Shown here piece by piece: positions 728 to 37,444 of a DNA stretch of 37,695 nucleotides; position 1 is the first letter of the stretch, and each line of letters starts with the position of its first letter. The stretch is from a virus. The stretch lies in the IMG/VR virus record IMGVR_UViG_3300048834_000292, positions 1-37,695 of that record; one strand, written 5' to 3'. A program made the translations under genes and the position numbers. The notes under the pieces are model-generated. The model was not told the origin of the DNA. It ran no database searches and saw nothing but the letters and a program-made list of their open reading frames with translations.

Positions 728-751
728 GTCTGCGAGCGCAATTACGCAGAC
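728..751 (-). other. intergenic hairpin between glycosyltransferase and scaffold-like gene
   Basis: A perfect 7-bp inverted repeat (GTCTGCG / CGCAGAC, 10-nt loop) begins at the stop codon of the upstream gene. A second weaker stem (about 696-713, CGGTT / AACCCG) follows. No U-run follows either, so these look like mRNA-stability or processing hairpins rather than terminators. The remaining 618-750 gap holds no gene that I can see. Confidence 0.4.
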
Positions 752-1620
752 TAACGAAAATTAAGGCCCTTTGGAGGGGCAGAGACTCGGCGAACCATAT
801 GGCCCTGAGCCTCAGTCAAAAGTTGTTTAAGCCGTTTGTTCTCGGCTTTGAGCTTGTCCCATTTCGCCTGAAGCTGGCCTGCTTGCTCTTCAATAAGACG
901 GCGCTGGTAGTCGACGGACTTTTGTGCGTAGGCCATGGCATAGTTGTTCATTTCAAGAAGATCGATATTATTCTTGAAGTGCTTACACACCATGGAGAAG
1001 TCGATAAAAAACTTAATCCCAAGCATGTGAAGCTTGCGGCAGAACCCGATGTCCTCGCCCTCAATCGGCATCCTGGTAATCGGGTCGTACTTAAACTCAA
1101 AGTACGGACGCTCAAGCTTCTCAAATACTTCGCGCTTAACGAACAAGCAACCCGTTGCGATACCGTCAATAAACGCCGTACCCTCGTTCGGAACTTCGCA
1201 GGGGGCGAGGCGGGGCTGTTTAGTCACCGGGTGTGGATCAATTGCCTTATACACCGTAAACACGATCTGGCGTTGACCTTCTCCGGGCTGGGCCATGAAT
1301 ACGGGGTACGGGGCGCCTGCGGCTTGCCATTTATCGCCGTGGGTAGTGATTAGGTCTAGTACATGGCGCGATGGGCAAATGTCGGAATCTAAGAACCAAA
1401 GGATATCGCAACCAGAATCTAGGAAGTCTTGAACAACGCCCTCACGAGCCGCGTCGTGGAAAATACGTTGGCAGAGGGCCTCTGGGTAGACAAGCTCTAC
1501 TTCGTCTTTATAGCGGTCTTGTAGGTCACGTAGAACGTAACCTTGGAAATCGGACACCGAGCCGTTGCTCGGCAGACCCATGTAAACACGCCAACGCTTC
1601 CCCGTCTTAGGATTCAACAT
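751..1620 (-). CDS. GT-A fold glycosyltransferase-like protein
   Basis: This 289-residue protein looks like a family 2-type (GT-A) nucleotide-sugar transferase. An acidic DSD motif at residues 78-80 follows a hydrophobic strand, as in the metal/nucleotide-binding DxD. A GEDIGFC segment near residue 190 resembles the downstream (E)D motif in front of the acceptor helix. The last 60 residues form a charged coiled coil. It overlaps the portal stop by TAATG, so it is cotranslated with head genes. A glycosyltransferase between portal and scaffold is unusual; it might decorate virion proteins or be a structural protein with a recruited fold. Substrate is unknown. Confidence 0.7.
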   Translation of the reverse strand: MLNPKTGKRWRVYMGLPSNGSVSDFQGYVLRDLQDRYKDEVELVYPEALCQRIFHDAAREGVVQDFLDSGCDILWFLDSDICPSRHVLDLITTHGDKWQAAGAPYPVFMAQPGEGQRQIVFTVYKAIDPHPVTKQPRLAPCEVPNEGTAFIDGIATGCLFVKREVFEKLERPYFEFKYDPITRMPIEGEDIGFCRKLHMLGIKFFIDFSMVCKHFKNNIDLLEMNNYAMAYAQKSVDYQRRLIEEQAGQLQAKWDKLKAENKRLKQLLTEAQGHMVRRVSAPPKGLNFR

Positions 1621-3887
1621 TATCTAGGCTCACTCCCTGGGGGAACATCCCCCGCTGTTGCAGCTTTCTGCATTGATTCAGGAGCGCCCTTGCCATGGCT
1701 CTGAGCTGGAGTTTTATCGCCTGCGGAGCCGGAAGGGCCCGGGTCTTGCCCCATCGCCATTGCCTGCATCGCCTGCATTTGTTGTTTTTGTTGTAGGGAC
1801 GTGTTGTGCTCTTCAACGTGCTGCATGTAAGCTTGCTGCACCTGGGGGTCGAGTTCCATCCAAGACGGCTCTTTCATCCGACGCTCGTGCGTCGAGATGT
1901 GAACTTGATCGTCATCACATTGAAGGACAACCGGTTTCTTGTCCGGAGTCGTAAGAATATTATCGAGGCAATCGTTTTCCCATAGCGCGCGTTTAGCGTC
2001 TGGGCCGACATCGTTATCGAAGCCCACAATACCCATCTGCCGCTGGTATTCCATGCGGTTAATAGGTTGAGTAAGGTCGATCGCGCCGGTTTGCGCAGCT
2101 TCTTGGAGCCGCATTTGCTTCATGGCTTCGAGCTTTGGAACGTTGGAGCCCGCTTCCACGACAACGTTACAGTTGTCGAGAAGATCGGCCCCGAGAAATG
2201 CTTCGATATCGCTCTCAGAAAGCTCTTTGTTGTGCTTCTTAAGGAGCGCGATATACTGCGGGCGCGGCTCCTTATACATCTTCGCAATGAGGTGAAGTTC
2301 TTTTTTCTGGTCGCTCTCGACGAAACGCTTCCAGCGGTCGAGGACCGGGAAAAGTTTGCCGGTGCCGACTTCGTAAAGGAGCGCAAGAGCGGAGGCCGCG
2401 TTAACTCCAGGGGGGCGGTCGCCCTTCAAGATGTCGATCGCACCCGTAATCGTTTTCATGTCCTGAACGCACTGTTCCCGCTCTTTGAAAACCTGAGAGT
2501 CAACGCCCTCAGCCTTTACGGTAGATGGAACGCCGACATCGGGGCGGTAGGAAAGCTGCTGTCCGGGACGACCCGTCCACTGACCCGGCTCAATACCACA
2601 GCCCGCAGGAACGAGTTTTTGCGGGATGGCTTGCGTCTTACGCACAAGCATGATCGTGGCGTCAATCGAGTTGATGCGCTTCTGGAGCTCGCACGCGGCG
2701 TCAAGCGGAGATTTACCCTCAAAGCGACCTGGGACGATTTCCCAGCGGCACTCGGAATAGGGGTGCCAGTCGCCTACATCAGGCCCGGAATAAGGTGAGT
2801 CACCAGCGTAAAGAGTAACCCCGTTAGCAACGACCACCAAACGACCGTTAGGGAAGTTAGCACTAGGTCTTTCATAGTATTCCTTAACGACCGCGGCGTT
2901 AGTTAGCGCGGAGGTTCCCCCGTCTTGCATCCCGCCGACCCCTTCAAGGGCAGCGGCATTTTTAACACCGGAAGAATTTTTAAGCTGGTAGAAGCGGCGC
3001 ATCGAAGCAGAGAGTTGTGTCTCCTGCTTAACTTCGTCAACGCGACCCGTGTAGCCCGGCTCAGATTTACCATACGCTTCGCGAATCCAGTCGAGAGGCT
3101 GAATCGCAAATTCCATGATCCAACGAGCGGAATGCAGATCCGGAGCCAAAGGGTCAAGTGCCATGCAGTATGGCTCTTTGACGACTGTGCTAACATCCCC
3201 AAGCGAAATAGTTTGGGGCGCGGCCTCTTCACCCGGGATTTGGGCGGCACTCGGCTCGCCAGTTCCTGGGTCAACTTCTGGAAGAAGCTGGTCTCCGGGG
3301 AGGGCTTGAGCATTCGCATCAACCGGAGAAGGGGGGAGTCCGGGTACTTCAATCGATCCTCCAGCAGACGTATCCCAGTAAGTTTTTTTGTAGACCGTGC
3401 CGTAGGTAATTAGAACAGACGCGGCATATTCGTAGTTTTCTTGGTCCTTAAGCCGCTCGTAATTAGCCTCAATACAAAGCTCAGCAACCTTGGCGGCAGC
3501 TTTGTCTTGGTAGGTTTGGGTGTTAGGCTTAACAGAGGAGCGGGGCTTGGTCTTGGTGAGGTAGGACTTAAGCGTCTGGTAGCAATCAAAAAGGTAGTTC
3601 GTTACCGGACGGGGGATATACTCGTTGGCCTTAGAGACCTGGAGGGTATTCCACTGGTACATGGAATTTCCGCCGTTACCCCCAAAGACGAGCCACTGGT
3701 CGCCGTCGAGCATGCGCATATTTCTCTCCCAATGATAGGAGAGGCGCGCCTTTTTAGTGCCGTCTTGTTTGTAGAAGCTCTCAATAGCGTTGGCGAGCTT
3801 ATCCGGCTCGTCATTGCTAATTTTACTTAAGTCTAGTTCGTTTCCGCTTGCGCTAATGGCGCCGGAACTAGTATCGTTACTCGCCAC
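1620..3887 (-). CDS. portal (head-tail connector) protein
   Basis: This 755-residue protein has the size and layout of podovirus portals of the P22/N4 kind. The N-terminal third contains the aromatic WxVFGGN-type start region and an IPRPVTNYLF segment. Middle sections contain the wing/stem, and the C-terminus is Gln/Met-rich. It would form the dodecameric ring at the packaging vertex and is the docking site for terminase. Its position four genes downstream of the large terminase in the same operon supports the call. It abuts its neighbours: its ATG shares bases with the preceding stop, and its own stop overlaps the glycosyltransferase start. Confidence 0.85.
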   Translation of the reverse strand: MASNDTSSGAISASGNELDLSKISNDEPDKLANAIESFYKQDGTKKARLSYHWERNMRMLDGDQWLVFGGNGGNSMYQWNTLQVSKANEYIPRPVTNYLFDCYQTLKSYLTKTKPRSSVKPNTQTYQDKAAAKVAELCIEANYERLKDQENYEYAASVLITYGTVYKKTYWDTSAGGSIEVPGLPPSPVDANAQALPGDQLLPEVDPGTGEPSAAQIPGEEAAPQTISLGDVSTVVKEPYCMALDPLAPDLHSARWIMEFAIQPLDWIREAYGKSEPGYTGRVDEVKQETQLSASMRRFYQLKNSSGVKNAAALEGVGGMQDGGTSALTNAAVVKEYYERPSANFPNGRLVVVANGVTLYAGDSPYSGPDVGDWHPYSECRWEIVPGRFEGKSPLDAACELQKRINSIDATIMLVRKTQAIPQKLVPAGCGIEPGQWTGRPGQQLSYRPDVGVPSTVKAEGVDSQVFKEREQCVQDMKTITGAIDILKGDRPPGVNAASALALLYEVGTGKLFPVLDRWKRFVESDQKKELHLIAKMYKEPRPQYIALLKKHNKELSESDIEAFLGADLLDNCNVVVEAGSNVPKLEAMKQMRLQEAAQTGAIDLTQPINRMEYQRQMGIVGFDNDVGPDAKRALWENDCLDNILTTPDKKPVVLQCDDDQVHISTHERRMKEPSWMELDPQVQQAYMQHVEEHNTSLQQKQQMQAMQAMAMGQDPGPSGSAGDKTPAQSHGKGAPESMQKAATAGDVPPGSEPR

Positions 3888-4138
3888 TAATAACTCCCAT
3901 TGAGGATGGCGTCGCGCTCAGCTAAGATCGCGGCATCTTCTTCGCTCAAGACTTCTTGGCGGGTTTGAATTTCGATTTGATCCTGTTGTCCGCTGAGGAG
4001 CCCGTCGGCTTCATACTCAACGGAAACAGCATTACGGATTTCGGGCCGCGCGATTTGCTTACGAAGAAACGTGACCTCGTCCCGAAGGACGGCCAGCGTT
4101 TTATCCTTCTCTAAACAAACCTTGCACGGCCCGAACAT
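3887..4138 (-). CDS. small CxxC protein of the head operon, unknown
   Basis: An 83-residue acidic protein beginning MFGPCKVCLEKD. The CxxC at residues 5-8 is followed by a predicted coiled coil, then an acidic tail. It sits between a 100-residue gene and portal, with start and stop overlapping both neighbours. Small coiled-coil proteins here are often head-joining or assembly factors, but nothing in the sequence identifies a family. A lone CxxC could bind metal in a dimer. Confidence 0.7.
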   Translation of the reverse strand: MFGPCKVCLEKDKTLAVLRDEVTFLRKQIARPEIRNAVSVEYEADGLLSGQQDQIEIQTRQEVLSEEDAAILAERDAILNGSY

Positions 4139-4440
4139 TACTTTGCTTCTCCGTAAAACTTAGCGCGAGCCCGGGCCACTGCATTGAGCTTATCCTGCAG
4201 CGACGGATTAGCCAGGTTAGCTGCCTGCTGTGCGGCAACGCCTTCGTCAGTAGGATAATCACCACGCATGGCCTTAAGCTTAGCTTCTGAGACCTCCGGG
4301 GCGGGCTCCGGCTTTGGGGCGGGGGCCGGGGCAACCAGCGAACCGGACTGGGTCGCGCCGCGTTGAAGGGCTTCCATGTCTTGCTGGTGCTGACTCTTTC
4401 GAGCCTTGCCCACCATGCGGTTAAGCGCTTCGCCAGCCAT
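4138..4440 (-). CDS. hypothetical head-operon protein, Ala/Pro-rich
   Basis: A 100-residue protein with a basic N-terminus (residues 1-20), a Pro/Ala/Glu-rich linker around 35-50 and a helical C-terminus. It overlaps the preceding gene by TAATG and the next by 1 base, so it is part of the cotranslated packaging/head operon. I recognise no domain. Composition suggests a flexible linker protein. Confidence 0.65.
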   Translation of the reverse strand: MAGEALNRMVGKARKSQHQQDMEALQRGATQSGSLVAPAPAPKPEPAPEVSEAKLKAMRGDYPTDEGVAAQQAANLANPSLQDKLNAVARARAKFYGEAK

Positions 4441-4703
4441 TAGATTCCAAGTCCGATCACAGTCGTAACGTAGTCCGTGGCCTGGGCGTTAAGGGCAAGC
4501 GTAGCCCCGTTACCCGAAAGGGTTGCGGCGGCGGATTGCGAAACACCGTTGACGATAACGGCGCGGACCTGCGCAAGCGAATCAAACGTTACAACACCGG
4601 AGGTGTCAGTAGAGAGCGCGGTGATTTGAACCACCTGCTGCTTGATGGGACCAATAGACCAGGCGCGAGGTTCGGCAGTAAGATTTACATAGGTAAGGGC
4701 CAT
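4440..4703 (-). CDS. putative small virion protein, beta-rich
   Basis: The ATG at 4703 follows AAGGAG with a 6-nt spacer, which fixes the start downstream of an upstream in-frame ATG. The 87-residue product is rich in Thr, Val, Ala and Ser in alternating patterns typical of small beta-structured phage virion proteins such as decoration or head-fibre-like proteins. It is the first gene after the promoter-like repeat at 4850-4871 and so probably the first cistron of a head transcript. Function is inferred only from composition and position. Confidence 0.65.
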   Translation of the reverse strand: MALTYVNLTAEPRAWSIGPIKQQVVQITALSTDTSGVVTFDSLAQVRAVIVNGVSQSAAATLSGNGATLALNAQATDYVTTVIGLGI

Positions 4704-4771
4704 AGGGAACTCCTTATGCACGTAGTTTTTAAGAGAGCCGCTCTAAGGGCCTACCTGCGCCCTAACGGTGT

Positions 4772-4801
4772 GGGCGGGGGATCAAAAGACCAGCCCCGCC
4801 C
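4772..4801 (-). other. strong GC hairpin in the 5' leader of the head transcript
   Basis: GGGCGGGG (4772-4779) and CCCCGCCC (4794-4801) form a perfect 8-bp stem with a 14-nt loop, between the promoter-like repeat at 4850 and the first gene at 4703. No U-run follows on the minus strand, so a leader-stabilising hairpin is more likely than a terminator for terminase mRNA, though read-through attenuation cannot be excluded. Confidence 0.45.
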
Positions 4802-4849
4802 TACTTGGTGGTTACACGTTGTTTCATTGGGTGTGTTGCTCCCAACTAT

Positions 4850-4871
4850 ATACTGTTAAGTTTGGCCAACA
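4850..4871 (-). promoter_or_regulatory. candidate phage late promoter or activator site, copy 1
   Basis: On the minus strand this reads TGTTGGCCAA, 3 variable bases, TAACAGTAT. The same 22-bp element with 19 identities is found at 7139-7160, and both copies lie directly upstream of minus-strand late gene blocks. An A/T-rich stretch (TATATAGT) follows, suggesting a melting region. The TTGGCC to TATATA spacing is too short for a canonical sigma-70 promoter, so a phage polymerase, alternative sigma or activator is a better guess. Confidence 0.5.
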
Positions 4872-4888
4872 CTACTCGCAAGTGCCTG

Positions 4889-6346
4889 TTAATAATCCCC
4901 AAACGGGTCTTTTTCTTTCGGCTTGCGGATGCTTTCAAGCTCTTTTTGAATCGAGGATTCCATAGAGGGAAAGCTTTTATCGTGTTTGATAAGCTTCGCG
5001 GGGTCGGGGCGGCTCATGATCAGATAGCGTAAGGCGTCACACGCGTGATCGTTGTACTTACGGGGCTCTTCTTTGCGGTTCTTAGAGCCCTCCTGCGAAG
5101 CGCTAAGTTCGGCCCAGCGATATTCCCCGATCTCTTCGATCAAGTTCGTACAGGTCGAGAAAATCGTGAGGCGCGGCTTCTTAGTCTTTGGGTTTACACG
5201 TAAAAACGACTTAACCCGATCGATACCTGAAGACACGTCATTGTTAGCGAGGACGAGCGCCACATGGTTGGGAAGATGCTCCAAATATGTTGAGAAATCC
5301 GAGACTCCGGTCTGCCCTCTAGTAGCCTTGGTACTTGGGTCAATGTAAATTGCGTCAACTCGGGGCTCTTTCGTTATAAACTTGTTAATGCCGGGCTCAC
5401 CGGACTTGCCGTGGCAGATATCCTTGATAATCCACTCACTTTTATAGAACTCGTGGTAAATCACGATGTTTCCGTCGTGGTCTACAGCACCAAATAGGAA
5501 GGCGGCGGGGTTCGTAAACCCGTGGTCGGCCCCTACAATGCGGGTCCAGCCCGAAGGGATGTCAAAAGGCTCGACAACATGGATTTGACGCGAAAAGTCG
5601 TCGTAAATCATACCCTCGAACGAGTCGAAAGAGCCCATAACATATCGCTGAATACGTTCCTTGGAGTACGAACTCAGCATATTTTCGATATAATCGGCGG
5701 CAAGGTGAATATTCTCGGTAGAGGGCGCCACAATCATCTTGTAGTTGGCCTTGGCCTCCTCAAGCGTGCGGGTAGGTGTAGCCTTTTGCTCGACCTTAGA
5801 TACGAAATATCTGTAAACATGGTCTCGACCCTTGGGGTTTCCAACCAGAAGGCCTTTACGGAGCCCCTTGGGGTTACGGAGGCGCCCCTGGAGCTTCAAA
5901 AACGCCTCCTGTGTGGTCTGGGACGCCTCGTCGATTGCGAACCCCGAGAGGTTCATAGAGTCGATTTTGCCGGGCTCATCGAGACCGATGAAGTAAACTA
6001 CCGCGATTCCGTTAGTTGACTTTAGGTGTACCTCTGCGTCGGCTACCCGTACCTCGGAAATCAGCTCCTTGGGGCACATTTCAAGGAAAGTTTTCATCGT
6101 CGTGCGCCGAAGCTCGGGCATAAAATGCCGCGAGATAAGATAGTCGCCGCCATACAACACGGCCTGGGTAATAATGGCCGTACAAAGCACTACGGATTTA
6201 CCCGACCCAAACCCCCCGTAGTAGGCTACGAACTGGGGGCCTTTGGGGTCCAGGGCGTATTTAAGGAATTCCTGCTGTTTTGGGAGTGGGGCGCGGGAGC
6301 CGTCGGCCGCGGCGGGAAAGAGCCTACGTAAATCAACAGTCGCCAC
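4889..6346 (-). CDS. terL: terminase large subunit (packaging ATPase-nuclease)
   Basis: This 485-residue protein carries the two TerL modules. The N-terminal ATPase has Walker A GGFGSGKS (44-51) and Walker B FAIDE (136-140), followed by a coupling-type GNPKG segment. The C-terminal RNase H-like nuclease has an acidic strand GADHGFTNPAAF (about 270) and a terminal NDHACDALRYL motif. It cuts concatemeric DNA and pumps it through the portal. The start is GTG at 6346, inside the preceding gene, with a weak ribosome site, implying coupling. The only small-terminase candidate lies far away at 16300-16752. Confidence 0.93.
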   Translation of the reverse strand: MATVDLRRLFPAAADGSRAPLPKQQEFLKYALDPKGPQFVAYYGGFGSGKSVVLCTAIITQAVLYGGDYLISRHFMPELRRTTMKTFLEMCPKELISEVRVADAEVHLKSTNGIAVVYFIGLDEPGKIDSMNLSGFAIDEASQTTQEAFLKLQGRLRNPKGLRKGLLVGNPKGRDHVYRYFVSKVEQKATPTRTLEEAKANYKMIVAPSTENIHLAADYIENMLSSYSKERIQRYVMGSFDSFEGMIYDDFSRQIHVVEPFDIPSGWTRIVGADHGFTNPAAFLFGAVDHDGNIVIYHEFYKSEWIIKDICHGKSGEPGINKFITKEPRVDAIYIDPSTKATRGQTGVSDFSTYLEHLPNHVALVLANNDVSSGIDRVKSFLRVNPKTKKPRLTIFSTCTNLIEEIGEYRWAELSASQEGSKNRKEEPRKYNDHACDALRYLIMSRPDPAKLIKHDKSFPSMESSIQKELESIRKPKEKDPFGDY

Positions 6347-22537: not shown

Positions 22538-24325
22538 ATGCTCAGGATTACACACCTGGTAAAACCCGGAGAGCTTAGGGAGTGGCTTGAGGATACGGCC
22601 AAGGAAGGCCAAGACACAGTAGCCCTAGACATAGAAACTACGGGCCTTTCCCGCACGGATAAAATTATTAGCGCGGCGGTCACTGGACCGACTGCGAACG
22701 ACGTGGCCTTTTTCGGGCCGGAGATGCTGCATGAACTACTTAGCGCTCCTAGCGGACTTACTTTTGTTTTCCATAATGCTTCTTTCGATTTGCGCCATCT
22801 GGCTTGGAGTGGCGCAGTTTTGCATCGAGACTTTTCGTACACGGACACGCTCATCCTGTCTCACCTGCTCGACGAAAACGGAGAACACGGGCTCGGATCG
22901 CTAGTACTGAGGTATTTCAATGACAACTACAAAGAAGAGTTCTGGACCAAGTACAAGAAAGCGGAAGACGCGCCGAAAGACGAACTCGCGCAGTACAACG
23001 CAAAAGACGTATCTTATACCCTCCGACTTTATCACACCCTTGTGGAATCCTTACGTGAGGACGGCATCCCCGGAAGTCTTCTACAACACGTACATGCATT
23101 ACAAAGAAGTCTTCTCGAAACCGAAATCGCAGGAATTGCCGTCGATCGAGACTACCTCCTCGCGAAAGGCGTGGAGCTTAAGACGCGCATTGAGAGCCTT
23201 CTTCCTCGGATGCGCCAGAGCGTTGCGGACGAGATCGCCATCATCGAGTGCGACGAGTGGGTCCGAGAAATTGAAAAGCGCAAGTCAAGCACTGGTCGCG
23301 CTAGAGTCCCTCGACCATCCTTCTCTTTTGACTCATCGAAACAACTACAGACGTTACTTTATGCGGAGCTTCGACTCCCTGAGCAACGAAATGAAAAAAC
23401 CAAGAACGTAACGGTGGACTGGGATGCCCTGGAAAAGCTCAAGGACCGGCACCCGGTCATTCCCCTGATCCAAGAGTACCGCGAGGCGCAGAAAATTTAT
23501 GGAACATACATTGAGGGCACTCTGGAGAGAATGGTTGAAGGAAGAATTTACCCTTCTTTCAACGTTACCGGAACCGCGACTGGACGAATTAGTCACAGCA
23601 ATCCAAACATGGGCAACATGCCTAGTGATGGTGGAATACGCGGTATATTTATGCCCGATCCCGGGTTTGTCTTCGTGTCAGCCGACTTTTCACAGCTCGA
23701 AGTGTGCCTATCCGCTCACTTTACCCGAGATGCGAGCCTCCTTCGAATCGTTAATGAGGGAGCTTCCCAACATGACATTACAGCTGAATCGCTTGGAATT
23801 GCGCGAAGTCTTGCTAAGACCGTGAACTTCGGGATGCAGTACGGCTGCTCCCACTATAAGGTTGCGAAAGTCCTCGGTGTAAGCGAGGCGGAAGGAAAGA
23901 AAGCGTATGACAAATACTGGGAAACGTACTCGGGGCAAAAACGTGTCATGGACGAGTGCGCAGCGAAAGTCGACAGAGGAGAGCCTATTATCAGCCCTTT
24001 TGGCCGTCGCAGACGTTTTGAACAGAGGAAGCGCGCTGCCTGGGATTCTGCTTACCGCCAAGCCTGGAACGCCCTCGTTCAGGGCACAGGCTCGGACTGT
24101 ACTTCGAGAGCTTTCTACCTTGCCGGAAGTGCTCTTGAGGCTAGAGGCATCGGCAGGGCTTTATTTACAGTCCACGACGAAATCGTCATCCAAGCGAAAA
24201 CCGAGCACGCGGAAGAAGCAGAAAAAATCCTCATCGAAACGATGATTAGTGTTGGAAAAGAGATCGGGCTTACGGTAGATTTAAAGGCAGAAAGTAGTGG
24301 TCCGATGGAGAGGTGGGAAGATTGA
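22538..24325 (+). CDS. polA: family A DNA polymerase with 3'-5' exonuclease
   Basis: A 595-residue replicative polymerase. The exonuclease domain has DIETTGL (31-37), NASFDL and YNAKDVSYT. The polymerase domain has motif A DFSQLE (about 383-388), motif B with R-x3-K-x3-F-x3-YG (about 422-436) and motif C VHDE (about 545). The 5' nuclease domain is absent, as in most phage polymerases. The motif B position equivalent to E. coli 762 is Phe. It would copy the genome with the helicase and primase downstream. Confidence 0.95.
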   Translation: MLRITHLVKPGELREWLEDTAKEGQDTVALDIETTGLSRTDKIISAAVTGPTANDVAFFGPEMLHELLSAPSGLTFVFHNASFDLRHLAWSGAVLHRDFSYTDTLILSHLLDENGEHGLGSLVLRYFNDNYKEEFWTKYKKAEDAPKDELAQYNAKDVSYTLRLYHTLVESLREDGIPGSLLQHVHALQRSLLETEIAGIAVDRDYLLAKGVELKTRIESLLPRMRQSVADEIAIIECDEWVREIEKRKSSTGRARVPRPSFSFDSSKQLQTLLYAELRLPEQRNEKTKNVTVDWDALEKLKDRHPVIPLIQEYREAQKIYGTYIEGTLERMVEGRIYPSFNVTGTATGRISHSNPNMGNMPSDGGIRGIFMPDPGFVFVSADFSQLEVCLSAHFTRDASLLRIVNEGASQHDITAESLGIARSLAKTVNFGMQYGCSHYKVAKVLGVSEAEGKKAYDKYWETYSGQKRVMDECAAKVDRGEPIISPFGRRRRFEQRKRAAWDSAYRQAWNALVQGTGSDCTSRAFYLAGSALEARGIGRALFTVHDEIVIQAKTEHAEEAEKILIETMISVGKEIGLTVDLKAESSGPMERWED

Positions 24326-31865: not shown

Positions 31866-32137
31866 TAAGCAATACCTCGGTTGTACATACCGGCAATTTT
31901 GTTAAGCTTGTCCTGTGCGCTAAGGGGTTTAGTCACGTCCTCTGCGGGAGGGGCTGCTAGATCCAGCGCTCCCGGCTTTTGGCCAATGTCCGCCATAGGG
32001 GCCGGAGCAAGCTCCAGGGCCGCAGGGCCTTTAGGCGCGGCGTTTTGATCCGCAATCTTCCCGGAACCCCCGCTTTTGGCGTCCTTGGCCCGGGCTTGAA
32101 TTCCTGCGATAGTATCCATGTCGTTTGCGGTAACCAT
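31865..32137 (-). CDS. 90-residue Ala/Pro-rich virion-operon protein
   Basis: A low-complexity, Ala/Pro/Asp-rich protein, likely disordered apart from a short C-terminal helix (DKLNKIAGMYNRG). It sits between two internal-virion-like genes with one-base overlaps. Unknown function. Confidence 0.55.
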   Translation of the reverse strand: MVTANDMDTIAGIQARAKDAKSGGSGKIADQNAAPKGPAALELAPAPMADIGQKPGALDLAAPPAEDVTKPLSAQDKLNKIAGMYNRGIA

Positions 32138-33426
32138 TAGCGACTTCCTTCTAACATCTTAAGGCGGTTGTTTAAATTTCCAAGACCCGCAGCAAGGGCG
32201 CCAAAACCTTTACCGTAGTCGACGGCTTTACCGTCTGGTGTCTCCTCTACCATCGAGGCGCCAACGGGGGTTTCTTCAAGCTCCTGGGCCATAGGCGAGG
32301 TGAACTCACCCTCCCCACCAAGCAAAGAGGCTTTCATTTCGGGTTTATACTCGTAGGTGTGGGGTTGAAGAGAGTCAAGAAATCCTTGGATATCTTTCGA
32401 GCCATCCCTAACATTTTCTTTACAATCTTCGTCGGAAGCCATCATACCAGAGCCCATTGCACTTCCGCCAGCCCCGGCCATACCAGAGACGAACGTGCCG
32501 GGAGCGGCCCCGATTTGTTGAGAAGACGAAAAGAGGCCCTGCCCAAAGCCCTCAAGAAGAGTCTTTCCCTTAGCGCCGCGCTTGTCTTGCATAGAAGCGA
32601 GGTTTGCGCTATTAGCATTCGCATTGGCGGAGTTTTGAATCTGCGCCGCGTTAAGGACGTTTTGCTGCCGATTCTGCGCACCGGAAAGCTGGCGTTGGTA
32701 CTGGTTTTGCTGTAGCGACCCGCCGAGTTGGCCGAGCTGGGTCTGCATTTGCTGATTGGCGAGAAGGCGTTGCTGGGTATCCGCCATACGCTTTTGGGCA
32801 ATGTCGGTTTGAGCACGGGCAAGCTGCTCATTTTTAGAGCCTTGGAGTCCAGAGAACATGGCGCCCGCAGCACCGGAACTACCGGAGGCTAGGCCTCGGC
32901 GAGCAAGCGCCTGCGTACCGGCCTGCTCTTGTTGACCATAAAGCCGGGCAATATCCCCGGCTGCTTGGCCGTAAGCTTCTCGGTCTTGTGGTTGAAGCGA
33001 GAATCCGCGAGAAGAGAGGTCCTTACCTTGGGCGGCAAGTTGAGACTGAAGCCCATCTCCACCAAACAGCGAGGAGTATAGCGGGTTGTTTTGTACTTCA
33101 TTCGCAGCAACCCGGGAGCCGCTAACCCCCTGGGTGTTAAAGTCTTCTAGCTGAGCGCCCTTAAGATCTTTTTGCGCACCGGCTAGATCTAACTTCCCAG
33201 ACTGGAGATCGGAAAGGCGCTGTTGGTATCCTTTGTCAGTAAGGGCCGCGTTTTCCGCGTTAAGCTGCTCAAGACCCGCGTTGGCGGTCTGTGGGTTGAA
33301 ATATTCACCCTGTTCGCCCGAGAGCCCAAGCGCTCGCGTAATAGGGTTAGAGCCCGTAAGCGCCGAAAACCCGCCAGTACTAGCCCCTAAAAATCCTTTT
33401 CCGATTCCGCCAATAGCCTTGCCCAT
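32137..33426 (-). CDS. virion protein with C-terminal S74-like intramolecular chaperone domain
   Basis: A 429-residue protein. The N-terminal 330 residues are Gly/Ala/Gln/Leu-rich and helical. The last about 100 residues follow the peptidase S74 (endosialidase chaperone) pattern: SDEDCKENV, FLDSLQPHTYEYK, MAQELEETPVG, TPDGKAVDYGK and a final helix. S74 domains trimerise the protein and often cleave themselves off at the Ser of SD. The N-terminal part resembles podovirus internal/tail proteins rather than a fibre. Confidence 0.7.
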   Translation of the reverse strand: MGKAIGGIGKGFLGASTGGFSALTGSNPITRALGLSGEQGEYFNPQTANAGLEQLNAENAALTDKGYQQRLSDLQSGKLDLAGAQKDLKGAQLEDFNTQGVSGSRVAANEVQNNPLYSSLFGGDGLQSQLAAQGKDLSSRGFSLQPQDREAYGQAAGDIARLYGQQEQAGTQALARRGLASGSSGAAGAMFSGLQGSKNEQLARAQTDIAQKRMADTQQRLLANQQMQTQLGQLGGSLQQNQYQRQLSGAQNRQQNVLNAAQIQNSANANANSANLASMQDKRGAKGKTLLEGFGQGLFSSSQQIGAAPGTFVSGMAGAGGSAMGSGMMASDEDCKENVRDGSKDIQGFLDSLQPHTYEYKPEMKASLLGGEGEFTSPMAQELEETPVGASMVEETPDGKAVDYGKGFGALAAGLGNLNNRLKMLEGSR

Positions 33427-33773
33427 TATGTAATCTCTTTTACGTAGTAGGCGACGTTGTCGCCGATCGAGTATAGTTTCATTCCGTACGCCACAAGCAC
33501 CTTTGCGCTTCTGTCAGGATCTTTAGATGTTCCGCAAACCGACCCGAAAAGCATTCTGATTCCAGCTTTTTTCGCAATCCCAGCAGCCCGGTCTGCTAAA
33601 GACGCCGCAACGTGGTTTTGTCGGTGTTCTGGGGCTACCCACAGATCTTGGATGTAACAGTGGGGGAAGTCTACGCCGGGAATACAATTAAAGCCGTAGG
33701 TTAAAAAGCCCCGATTTTCGGAGTCTTCCAAGGTCTCTAGTCCGAGCGTTTCTCGTAGGTAACGGGCGTACAT
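33426..33773 (-). CDS. GNAT-family N-acetyltransferase-like protein
   Basis: A 115-residue protein with the GNAT core: a beta strand before VAPEHRQNHVAASLADRA, which matches the acetyl-CoA pyrophosphate loop (Q/R-x-x-G/A) and following helix, and a C-terminal AYGMKLYSIG strand. The glycine of the loop is replaced by His/Val, so activity is uncertain. It lies in the virion operon, as GNAT-like proteins do in some podoviruses. Confidence 0.7.
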   Translation of the reverse strand: MYARYLRETLGLETLEDSENRGFLTYGFNCIPGVDFPHCYIQDLWVAPEHRQNHVAASLADRAAGIAKKAGIRMLFGSVCGTSKDPDRSAKVLVAYGMKLYSIGDNVAYYVKEIT

Positions 33774-34268
33774 CTAAATCTTAGCTACCTGGGTTATTCG
33801 AAACGACTGCGCCTGACCACCCACCTGGTTAACGGTATTTGAAGAAAACAAACCGCCCGGGGTTTGAACTCTGATTTTATCACCAGCCCTAAAAAAGCTT
33901 ATGCCGGTTACCGATATCGGAACCCCAGAAGGAGATCCTGTCGCAATTAGCACGTCATCTAGGCTAGGGGCGGCGTTAAGAGTTCTAGAGTTTCTAGTAA
34001 TAGACACAGAGGACGCAGCAGCGGCGTTGTAATCTGATCCGTAGCTATAGGCGTAAATCCCATCCTCGTTCACCAGCACGTAAGTGGAGTAATCCACGTC
34101 AAACACGCCGATGGCGCTGAGCGCCGACCCGACGCTTTTTCGTAGGGCAGTAAAAAGCTTAACTGACGTATTGATATTGCCCTGCCCGTTGGGGCTATCC
34201 AACACAACTTCGCTGATCTGCTGTGATTTGCTGGGAAACCCTAGCAGGTTATTTACATCTAGCGCCAT
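33774..34268 (-). CDS. virion structural protein, beta-rich
   Basis: A 164-residue protein starting at ATG 34268, which overlaps the previous stop (TAATG). Rich in Ser, Val, Ala and Thr with regular alternation, ending with a small barrel-like segment (RAGDKIRVQTPGG). Likely tail or capsid accessory protein. Family not recognised. Confidence 0.6.
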   Translation of the reverse strand: MALDVNNLLGFPSKSQQISEVVLDSPNGQGNINTSVKLFTALRKSVGSALSAIGVFDVDYSTYVLVNEDGIYAYSYGSDYNAAAASSVSITRNSRTLNAAPSLDDVLIATGSPSGVPISVTGISFFRAGDKIRVQTPGGLFSSNTVNQVGGQAQSFRITQVAKI

Positions 34269-34675
34269 TAAAATTCTCCGTACTCCACGGAAACACAAAT
34301 TCCGTTAGTGACAGCAGTATTGGCGACGGTCGCTCGAAGGACCGCGTTGGCGGGGAGAACGAGGTTTGCCGCCCAACTGACCGGTACTAGTCCAGCGACA
34401 GTGGTGGAGGTAGTGGCGGGAATAGTCACATCATACAGCAGCCGGTTATTGACCCCACCGGATCCAACCGTATCGATAAAAATTCTAGCGGAGGTGGCCG
34501 CATTCGTTCCAGTGGGCGTAAAATAAATGGTGTCTACTCGGCCCCCAGTTACCCCCATAGTCAGGACAGTTGCTACCGTGGTCGGGTTTTGGTACGCCGG
34601 GTCCCCGGCGCTGGTCGCGTTAAGAATAGCGCTTGCAAATTTAGGGGTGCTAGTAAAAGAAGGTGATGCGGCCAT
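34268..34675 (-). CDS. virion structural protein, Thr/Ala-rich
   Basis: A 135-residue beta-rich protein of low charge (Thr, Ala, Val, Asn). AAGGA lies 6 nt before ATG. Composition and operon position suggest a head decoration or tail-sheath-like accessory protein. Confidence 0.6.
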   Translation of the reverse strand: MAASPSFTSTPKFASAILNATSAGDPAYQNPTTVATVLTMGVTGGRVDTIYFTPTGTNAATSARIFIDTVGSGGVNNRLLYDVTIPATTSTTVAGLVPVSWAANLVLPANAVLRATVANTAVTNGICVSVEYGEF

Positions 34676-34684
34676 GTTTAGTCC

Positions 34685-35068
34685 TTATCCAAAACGATAG
34701 AAGTTATAGATTAAAAGCCCGGGTCCGGAGGGCACAGCGTCAAACGTTAGGCCGGTTCCAGTAGAGTTCACTTGTAAAACCTCGCCTATATCTAGTGTGG
34801 TTGCTGCGAACGTGAATCCAAAACCGCCTTGCGCCGCCGTGATAAACGGCGCAACGGTAAGTTGTCCAAGCGTGTCAGTAACGGCTACCTGGAGCGAAGT
34901 CTGCGTCGTAAGCCGGTCCCACGAAAGCCCGTTTTGTTGGATGTTGACCGAGTTGAGTTTAGTTGTGTTAAGAAGCGTAGCAATGGCGTTAAACTTACCA
35001 TTAACTTCGCTCGATAGAATTTTAGTAAACGGCTGGAAGTCCCCAGTCGGATAAACTAGCGTAGGAAT
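34685..35068 (-). CDS. virion protein with AUU start or +1 frameshift product
   Basis: A 127-codon open frame (35068 to the TAA at 34685) with clear protein-like composition: mixed polar/aromatic start (PTLVYPTGDFQPFTK), beta-rich body. It contains no ATG, GTG or TTG in the first 99 codons. ATT at 35068 has a perfect AGGAGG site with a 6-nt spacer, which would allow initiation at AUU as in infC. Alternatively the preceding gene shifts +1 at its GTG-TAG end. A sequence error is the third possibility. Confidence 0.7.
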   Translation of the reverse strand: MPTLVYPTGDFQPFTKILSSEVNGKFNAIATLLNTTKLNSVNIQQNGLSWDRLTTQTSLQVAVTDTLGQLTVAPFITAAQGGFGFTFAATTLDIGEVLQVNSTGTGLTFDAVPSGPGLLIYNFYRFG

Positions 35069-35069
35069 G

Positions 35070-35378
35070 CTACACCTCCTGCACGACTACTGAACTAAAG
35101 TCGGCGGTCGCGGTTGCCGGGATATTTCCCGTATAGTTAAAGATGCGTTGTGGGTCGGTCCCGATTGAGGGGTACATAACCGTAAAGATGACCGAGATGC
35201 TTTGTTGAAGCGTCAGGGTGAAGTTTCCGCTAGAGTCAGTTTGAACGCTGACTTGAAGCGGGGTAACCAGTTCCGTACTAGAAAACACGGGTTGGTTAAC
35301 GCGGGCGATAATCGACACACTCGAAATCGCAGTGCCGGACGGATCAATGACGTTACCAGAAACAGCGCAGGTAGCCAT
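35070..35378 (-). CDS. tail-associated protein with Ig-like/carboxypeptidase-regulatory-like fold
   Basis: A 102-residue protein starting MATCAVSGNVIDPSGTAIS, the G-x-V-xDxxGxAIxxxxV pattern of carboxypeptidase-regulatory-like (transthyretin-like) beta domains, then DSSGNFTLTL. Such domains occur on tail fibres and adhesins. Its last codons GAG GTG TAG contain the Shine-Dalgarno of the next gene. Confidence 0.65.
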   Translation of the reverse strand: MATCAVSGNVIDPSGTAISSVSIIARVNQPVFSSTELVTPLQVSVQTDSSGNFTLTLQQSISVIFTVMYPSIGTDPQRIFNYTGNIPATATADFSSVVVQEV

Positions 35379-37444
35379 TACTTATTGAGCCCGCCTTCCA
35401 TTGAGAAAATTGAGTAGCCGTAAATCGTAACGGGCTGATCGATTCCACTGTTACGGAAATTGAGGCGGATACAATCCCCCTCGTTATTTCCCTGGTCGTT
35501 GTTGAGGTTGAACACAACGCCAGTCAAGGATTGGGTGTAGTCGTCCCAAGAAGCCGCATCCCAGTAAGCAACATCCCAGAGCGCCGTAGCGTTTGTAGCC
35601 GCCGTCGTGATGGGGGCTTGAAGGGTAGACTTTTGCGACAGCGCGGCACGGAACCCAGCCCAATAGTCAAGCTTAAGGTCCCAGTTACCGAGCGCATCGA
35701 CCCAAGCGATCACCTTGACAAACCGCTTGGATTTGTTAGGTGTCGAAAGCATATAAAACGGGGTGGTGTATTGAAAATCAATTGCCGATCCCGCATCACT
35801 AAACTGCTGGTACGCCTTATAAACAAATCCCGCATTATCGCCAATGAGCATAATCTCGTCGCTGGACGAAGACGGGAGATAGGCTTTGGCAGAGTAGATT
35901 TGCTGCGCCGACGTATCAGTGACAAACACGCCGTCCATGATCCGGGAGTTAAGGGTACTCGTCACGCCGGGGAGCGTAAGGCGCAGGTCCATTTTGAATA
36001 CGAACTTCTGCGTCCCGTGAACCTTGGAGGAGACGTACCAGTAAATCATGTTACGGTTACGGAAGTACTGCCCGTAGCCGTAAATAAGCTGGGATTTGTC
36101 TAGGTCTCCGTCGATTGCGAAGTAGGGCTCAATGGGCCGGGACACATAGATTGGTTTTCCGGAGCCGTCCCAGAGATAGATCCCACGATAGTCGATCCAT
36201 GCAAGGAAGCCGTTAGCGAGAACAATGAGGGATTGGTTTGCGCAGCCAACAGTGTCGATGAAGGATAGAGTGACGTCAGTATAGTCATTTCCTCTGACCA
36301 ACCACAGCTCCCGCTCCTTGAAGACAGCCAGATATTCATCATTACCGAAATCCGTGTTAAAAGAGATTACCGCAAGTCCTGTAATTGGCCCACCAGACGG
36401 CACGTCGATCGTATTGACAGTAGGCCAAGACTCGGGGGCGTTAAGCTCCGAGAACCGAAGCGTCGTTCCGGTAGCGGTAACAAGCCTTCGCTTCCAGGTA
36501 CAAAGGACGTTGTAAGTCCCGGCAGGAAGCGTAGAGTTGTCGAGCAGAACGTTATTGGGGCGAGGAACGTTTTGGGTATCGAGAATGGAGGTACCGGTAT
36601 CGGTATAGCTCGTAACGGGGAGCGTAAGGGTCGCGATAAGGTCCCCGACCGTAAAACCCGAAACCGCAAGAGGGCCGGAGGTCGAAACGGCGGAGCGGTA
36701 GATCTGCATCCGGTCATAGGTCTGGGTATCGACCGAAGTAAGCCCGGAAAACGTAAGAACTACAGAATCCGTAACTGAAGCAACAGTCGCGTAAACATCA
36801 ACCGTAACGCCAAGCGAAAGGGTAGCAGAGCCCGAATAGGCGTTGCTCTCGGCTCCCGTAGAGCGTTTTAAATAACTAACGCCGTAGGCGAAGGTTCCGG
36901 TAGTCTGCCAAACTCCACCACCCGCTGTAGTCGTAGCAGTAAACGTTCCGGTGGGGGCTGCGGCACCGTTCTTAGTGTACTTTGCGTCAGAGTAAACTGC
37001 GTAGACACCGTCGGTAGCGCCCGCAAAGTTGAGAAGCGAAACCGAAGCCGTATTGAATGGAGCAAAGACGGTAGGTGTTACGTTAGACGAGGAAAATACG
37101 TCGGTCGTAGCGGCGGTAGTGTCTTGCGAAAGATTTGTAAAGAGCGGAGTGTCAATGTCGAGATTCTGGATCTTCGTACCGGCAGCGCGGATCGGGGTTT
37201 TAACTCCAAGCGTAGTGACGAAGATTTCAAGTCCGCGTGTAGTTAATTGGGTATCAGCAGTAGTGTTAACGGCAGCCGCGCCCCTGCGCTTCTGAATTCC
37301 ACCCGTCTGGGTGTACTCAAAGTTATTCCCATCCGTCGCCTGAGTATCCTTGACGCGGAAAGGGGAATCAGAGATGTTTAAACCGCCAATGTTATCGAAA
37401 AACTGAGTTTCGAGTAGTTGGCCGTTTGGGGAACTTTGCGCCAT
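35378..37444 (-). CDS. tail tube/hub protein (P22 gp10-like or tubular protein B-like)
   Basis: A 688-residue protein, beta-rich throughout, with internal WD/YW-containing repeats (for example LWLVRGNDYTDVTL, IYLWDGSGKPIYVS) suggestive of a beta-propeller. The N-terminus (GGLNISDSPFRVKDTQATDGNN) resembles tail-stabilisation and tubular B-type proteins. It would form the distal part of a short tail. It starts in a TAATG overlap with the partial gene at the right edge. Confidence 0.7.
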   Translation of the reverse strand: MAQSSPNGQLLETQFFDNIGGLNISDSPFRVKDTQATDGNNFEYTQTGGIQKRRGAAAVNTTADTQLTTRGLEIFVTTLGVKTPIRAAGTKIQNLDIDTPLFTNLSQDTTAATTDVFSSSNVTPTVFAPFNTASVSLLNFAGATDGVYAVYSDAKYTKNGAAAPTGTFTATTTAGGGVWQTTGTFAYGVSYLKRSTGAESNAYSGSATLSLGVTVDVYATVASVTDSVVLTFSGLTSVDTQTYDRMQIYRSAVSTSGPLAVSGFTVGDLIATLTLPVTSYTDTGTSILDTQNVPRPNNVLLDNSTLPAGTYNVLCTWKRRLVTATGTTLRFSELNAPESWPTVNTIDVPSGGPITGLAVISFNTDFGNDEYLAVFKERELWLVRGNDYTDVTLSFIDTVGCANQSLIVLANGFLAWIDYRGIYLWDGSGKPIYVSRPIEPYFAIDGDLDKSQLIYGYGQYFRNRNMIYWYVSSKVHGTQKFVFKMDLRLTLPGVTSTLNSRIMDGVFVTDTSAQQIYSAKAYLPSSSSDEIMLIGDNAGFVYKAYQQFSDAGSAIDFQYTTPFYMLSTPNKSKRFVKVIAWVDALGNWDLKLDYWAGFRAALSQKSTLQAPITTAATNATALWDVAYWDAASWDDYTQSLTGVVFNLNNDQGNNEGDCIRLNFRNSGIDQPVTIYGYSIFSMEGGLNK

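Follow-up and report, generated by a model that had tools for sequence, protein, structure and literature searches.

A 127-amino-acid protein in the structural gene block of an uncultured phage is very probably translated as a separate product from an AUU start codon at position 35068, which is the account best supported by the sequence comparisons below. The window analyzed here is the whole stretch of 37,695 nucleotides of IMG/VR virus record IMGVR_UViG_3300048834_000292 (positions 1-37,695). The gene, which encodes a probable virion (fibre-like) protein, occupies 34685..35068 on the minus strand, with ATT at 35066..35068. On the minus strand the frame stays open between 35086 and its stop codon (34687-34685), ATT opens 127 codons of it, and the first in-frame ATG, GTG or TTG after ATT is codon 100, i.e., 99 codons later. 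The upstream 102-aa gene (35070..35378, minus strand, ATG start) ends with GTG CAG GAG GTG TAG, the stop lying at 35072-35070, followed by C and then by ATT. The start codon is thus located 1 nt past the upstream stop, and in the window its frame is +1 relative to that stop. The extended Shine-Dalgarno (SD) sequence AGGAGGUG (35073..35080, minus strand) lies inside the 3′ end of the upstream gene, and its AGGAGG (35080-35075) ends 6 nt before ATT. A 135-aa gene with an ATG start is found downstream (34268..34675, minus strand), and the same block contains a conserved 688-aa gene (35378..37444, minus strand) that was used as the phylogenetic yardstick. The initial annotation had described the 127-codon frame lacking ATG, GTG and TTG for 99 codons, the upstream ending GAG GTG TAG C ATT with AGGAGG 6 nt away, and the +1 offset of the downstream frame, all of which are confirmed in the window; its extent of 34685-35075 cuts into the SD sequence, and the element spans 35080-34685. 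A run of 99 codons without ATG, GTG or TTG has a chance of about 2% at the in-gene frequency of 3.7% in the other genes of the window. The missing canonical start is therefore mildly unlikely and by itself weak evidence; it is the comparison with relatives that decides.

The protein matches seven IMG/VR records at 50-69% identity, and these records represent six distinct sequences. The comparative sample thus comprises six distinct relatives, or eight records including the window (G001 = L008, G002 = L010, G003 = L009, G004 = L012, G005 = L011, G006 = L013 and G007 = L007). In all seven related records the protein begins at the identical residue, reading x-Pro-x-Leu, where x is the first codon, and the window and its relatives share the N-terminal pattern x-P-x-L-x-[YF]-P...F-x-PFTKILSSEVNGKF. 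As first codon, G007 and G001 have ATG, G005 and G006 have GTG, G004 has TTG, and G002 and G003 have ATT. The last two records come from different metagenomes and are 100% identical over their shared 5,934 bp; their protein is 59% identical to that of the window, their ATT is likewise preceded by AGGAGG, and theirs is the only other sequence without ATG, GTG or TTG at the start position. In the alignment, the start of the AUU gene therefore coincides both with the canonical start codons of relatives and with a second ATT, as expected of a near-cognate start position. Relatives with a normal start had been named in the initial annotation as evidence against its proposal, and some relatives do have such starts, but these fall exactly on the ATT position, and this coincidence supports ATT as the start. 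ATG opens both flanking genes, upstream and downstream, in each of the eight records, and the weak starts are therefore a property of the AUU gene. No other conserved gene lacking a canonical start was found in these records.

It is also evident that protein conservation starts exactly at the ATT codon, and that the residues before it are unrelated among the relatives. In the same frame ahead of the start there is no conservation except in G005-G007, in which the frame continues backwards, past the stop, into the upstream gene. For codons 2-50, comparisons of the window with each relative give pS values of 0.71-0.92 and pN values of 0.12-0.24. As pN is well below pS from codon 2 on, the region ahead of any canonical start is under purifying selection and, by this evidence, is translated as protein. 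Starting at codon 100, the next canonical codon in the window, would lose the most strongly conserved region, and starting at the TTG at codon 18 in G002 would lose the conserved N-terminus of that protein.

Near-cognate initiation calls for a strong and well-spaced SD sequence, and AGGAGGUG, at 6 nt, provides a predicted pairing energy of −14.2 kcal/mol, the strongest among 30 gene starts compared within the window (the next being −9.9 kcal/mol). All duplex energies refer to an E. coli-type 16S tail, on the assumption that the anti-SD of the host is of this type. The octamer AGGAGGTG is a perfect complement of this tail and occurs only once in the window. Among the relatives, the pairing energies at the start are −11.4 kcal/mol for ATT in G002, −10.2 for TTG, −10.7 and −6.0 for ATG, and −6.2 for GTG; at best, there is a partial inverse relation between SD strength and start strength, drawn from few points. 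Other SD-preceded ATH or CTG codons with long downstream frames in the window either fall within other genes or, again as far as checked, are found on the other strand. A predicted hairpin with AUU in its loop was not significant (z = −1.07) and was not common to the relatives.

An SD-like sequence beside a stop codon, followed by a frame that is +1 in the window, is also the layout of the programmed +1 frameshift of prfB (RF2), and the initial annotation had alternatively suggested that such a shift at GUG-UAG-C fuses the upstream gene and the AUU frame into a protein of about 230 residues. The offset of the start relative to the upstream stop is, however, 0 in G007, G005 and G006, +2 in G001, G002/G003 and G004, and +1 in no relative; in the three records with offset 0, the upstream stop stands in the same frame as the downstream ATG or GTG. 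Stimulation of RF2-type frameshifting requires 3 nt between the SD sequence and the shift codon (PMC5009743), whereas here AGGAGG overlaps the P-site GUG instead of lying 3 nt upstream. In addition, GUG is not slippery, as a Val-tRNA shifted from GUG to UGU would form no pairs, and the upstream and downstream proteins are conserved as separate units. The phage site thus differs from prfB in SD spacing, shift codon and conservation of the offset, and on these grounds RF2-type frameshifting is rejected as a conserved mechanism and is extremely improbable as the source of the product. Of the two readings that had been proposed, it is initiation at AUU that agrees with a start position shared by all seven related records and with a second ATT sequence carrying AGGAGG.

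Alternatively, ATT may have replaced a canonical start, either by a recent mutation that was inactivating or through an error in sequencing or assembly. The window represents a single uncultured record, and G001, its closest relative on the 688-aa neighbor, has ATG. Against this, the distinct lineage of G002/G003 has ATT at the same place, no other start examined in the window has an SD sequence as strong, and the frame is both uninterrupted and conserved. Since the second ATT sequence occurs identically in two metagenomes, an assembly error is unlikely, and we consider error or recent mutation improbable as a whole, although a sequencing error at this base of the window itself is conceivable. 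Even less probable, with hardly any weight in our view, is that the protein is made from another near-cognate codon or internal start, or that only a short C-terminal piece is made from codon 100. GTG is present at codons 100 and 112, but no comparable SD sequence is found there, the whole conserved part would be lost, purifying selection spans codons 2-50, and no other near-cognate codon is as well placed as AUU.

For initiation at AUU, the 30S subunit would be positioned by the 8-base anti-SD match within the terminal codons of the upstream gene, and ribosomes terminating one base upstream of AUU would probably help. The stop-to-start spacing in all eight records, from a 1-nt overlap to an 8-nt gap, falls in the range for translational coupling (PMC10666635) and is compatible with termination-reinitiation (PMC10666635, PMC5009743). 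Initiator fMet-tRNA would read AUU with a third-position mismatch to give fMet-Pro-Thr-Leu..., from which Met would probably be removed, and the weak start would keep the 127-aa protein below its neighbors. Non-canonical starts are repressed by IF3 (PMC5472188), and re-initiation is also affected by IF3 (PMC2268962); supposing that IF3 of the host behaves like that of E. coli, the AUU gene may be subject to the same control. The start position, the coding selection, the SD sequence and the lack of better alternatives are read from the sequence itself, and we infer AUU initiation, coupling, fMet use, IF3 sensitivity and low output relative to the neighbors.

The two trees place the ATT sequences differently. 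In the tree of the 688-aa neighbor, the window groups with G001 (ATG; support 100/100) and G002/G003 group with G007 (ATG; 100/99). In the tree of the AUU gene, the window groups weakly with G007 (ATG; 85/86) and G002/G003 group with G004 (TTG; 96/97). As the ATT lineages are not sisters in either tree, ATT was probably either gained twice or lost several times, which suggests recurrent use of ATT at this gene. The discordance in the closest relative of the window (G001 versus G007) suggests recombination within the block at 34685-37444. It is conceivable, if rather doubtful, that weak starts (AUU, UUG and GUG) have been repeatedly selected at this gene in this phage lineage, the weakest being offset by strong SD sequences; the fibre-like protein would then be kept at a constant, low proportion relative to its neighbors, possibly with an output responsive to host IF3, and the two ATT sequences would be of independent origin.

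To our knowledge, few natural AUU starts are well supported, and most of them are in host genes. AUU initiation is thus a rare but known kind of initiation, seen in infC and cvfC1, to which the phage gene adds. Similar to the phage gene, infC of E. coli (encoding IF3) starts with AUU, and discrimination by IF3 lowers its output (PMC5472188). It differs in being a host gene under autoregulation, whereas the gene described here is of a phage structural type and is not known to be subject to feedback. The S. aureus genes cvfC1 (AUU) and ccpN (AUA) likewise combine a weak ATN start with an extended SD sequence, and in reporters in poor medium their non-canonical starts gave about 10% of AUG output (PMC13009471). 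These are different genes from the phage AUU gene, with no homology claimed, and their weak start is conserved among relatives, whereas in the phage gene the codon varies (ATT, TTG, GTG or ATG) and the position is fixed. In Streptomyces, the GTC start of sigR, which IF3 controls, determines the proportion of its product to that of a partner transcribed together with it (PMC5472188). Although sigR also has a non-canonical start, its codon, gene and organism differ, and the regulatory role shown for sigR would be an extrapolation for the phage gene. Our literature search found no phage gene with an AUU start, which is not proof of absence. Notable here is the comparative support for an AUU start within a phage structural block, recurring in a second lineage. 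The gene is absent from an open reading frame list built on ATG, GTG and TTG starts with a 60-aa minimum; since gene callers restricted to these codons would miss it, similar genes may go unnoticed in phage genomes.

G001 (IMGVR_UViG_3300045974_000152, 43 kb) is related to the window across much of the genome (window positions 751-6346, 22538-24325 and 35378-37444), with identities of 71-74% for the terminase, 82% for a 755-aa gene and 76% for a 595-aa gene. GenBank phages among the matches listed reach 32% or less for the terminase, and no GenBank phage matched the 127-aa protein (tblastn), the 3.3-kb region (blastn) or the 688-aa neighbor (tblastn). With G001 close and the listed GenBank phages distant, the window apparently belongs to an undescribed phage lineage. 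No relative of the 127-aa protein or of the terminase was found in bacterial genome contigs, hence these give no clue to the host.

The 127-aa protein itself has no PHROG or Pfam match and matches PDB profiles only at E above 0.1, and its AlphaFold model is poor (pLDDT 45). Its designation as a virion gene in the initial annotation is plausible from genomic context, as the 688-aa gene matches phrog_511 ("internal virion protein") over part of its protein (E = 1.2e-14). The upstream 102-aa gene shows weak similarity to carboxypeptidase-regulatory and Ig-like domains, and the block also holds weak S74 chaperone and BclA-C matches; the former is near the C-terminus of a 429-aa protein (32137-33426), which matches the endosialidase chaperone domain (Peptidase_S74) just under the Pfam cut-off. 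Between G005 and G006, the end of the upstream protein is the same and the N-terminal half of the AUU-gene protein is nearly identical, but the C-termini of the latter differ sharply. This divergence suggests modular exchange of a fibre-like tip, and such an abruptly varying C-terminus would suit a fibre or tip component. An acetyltransferase-like gene (33426-33773; phrog_1249, E = 0.00027), which is conserved in the relatives, is also located among the virion genes.
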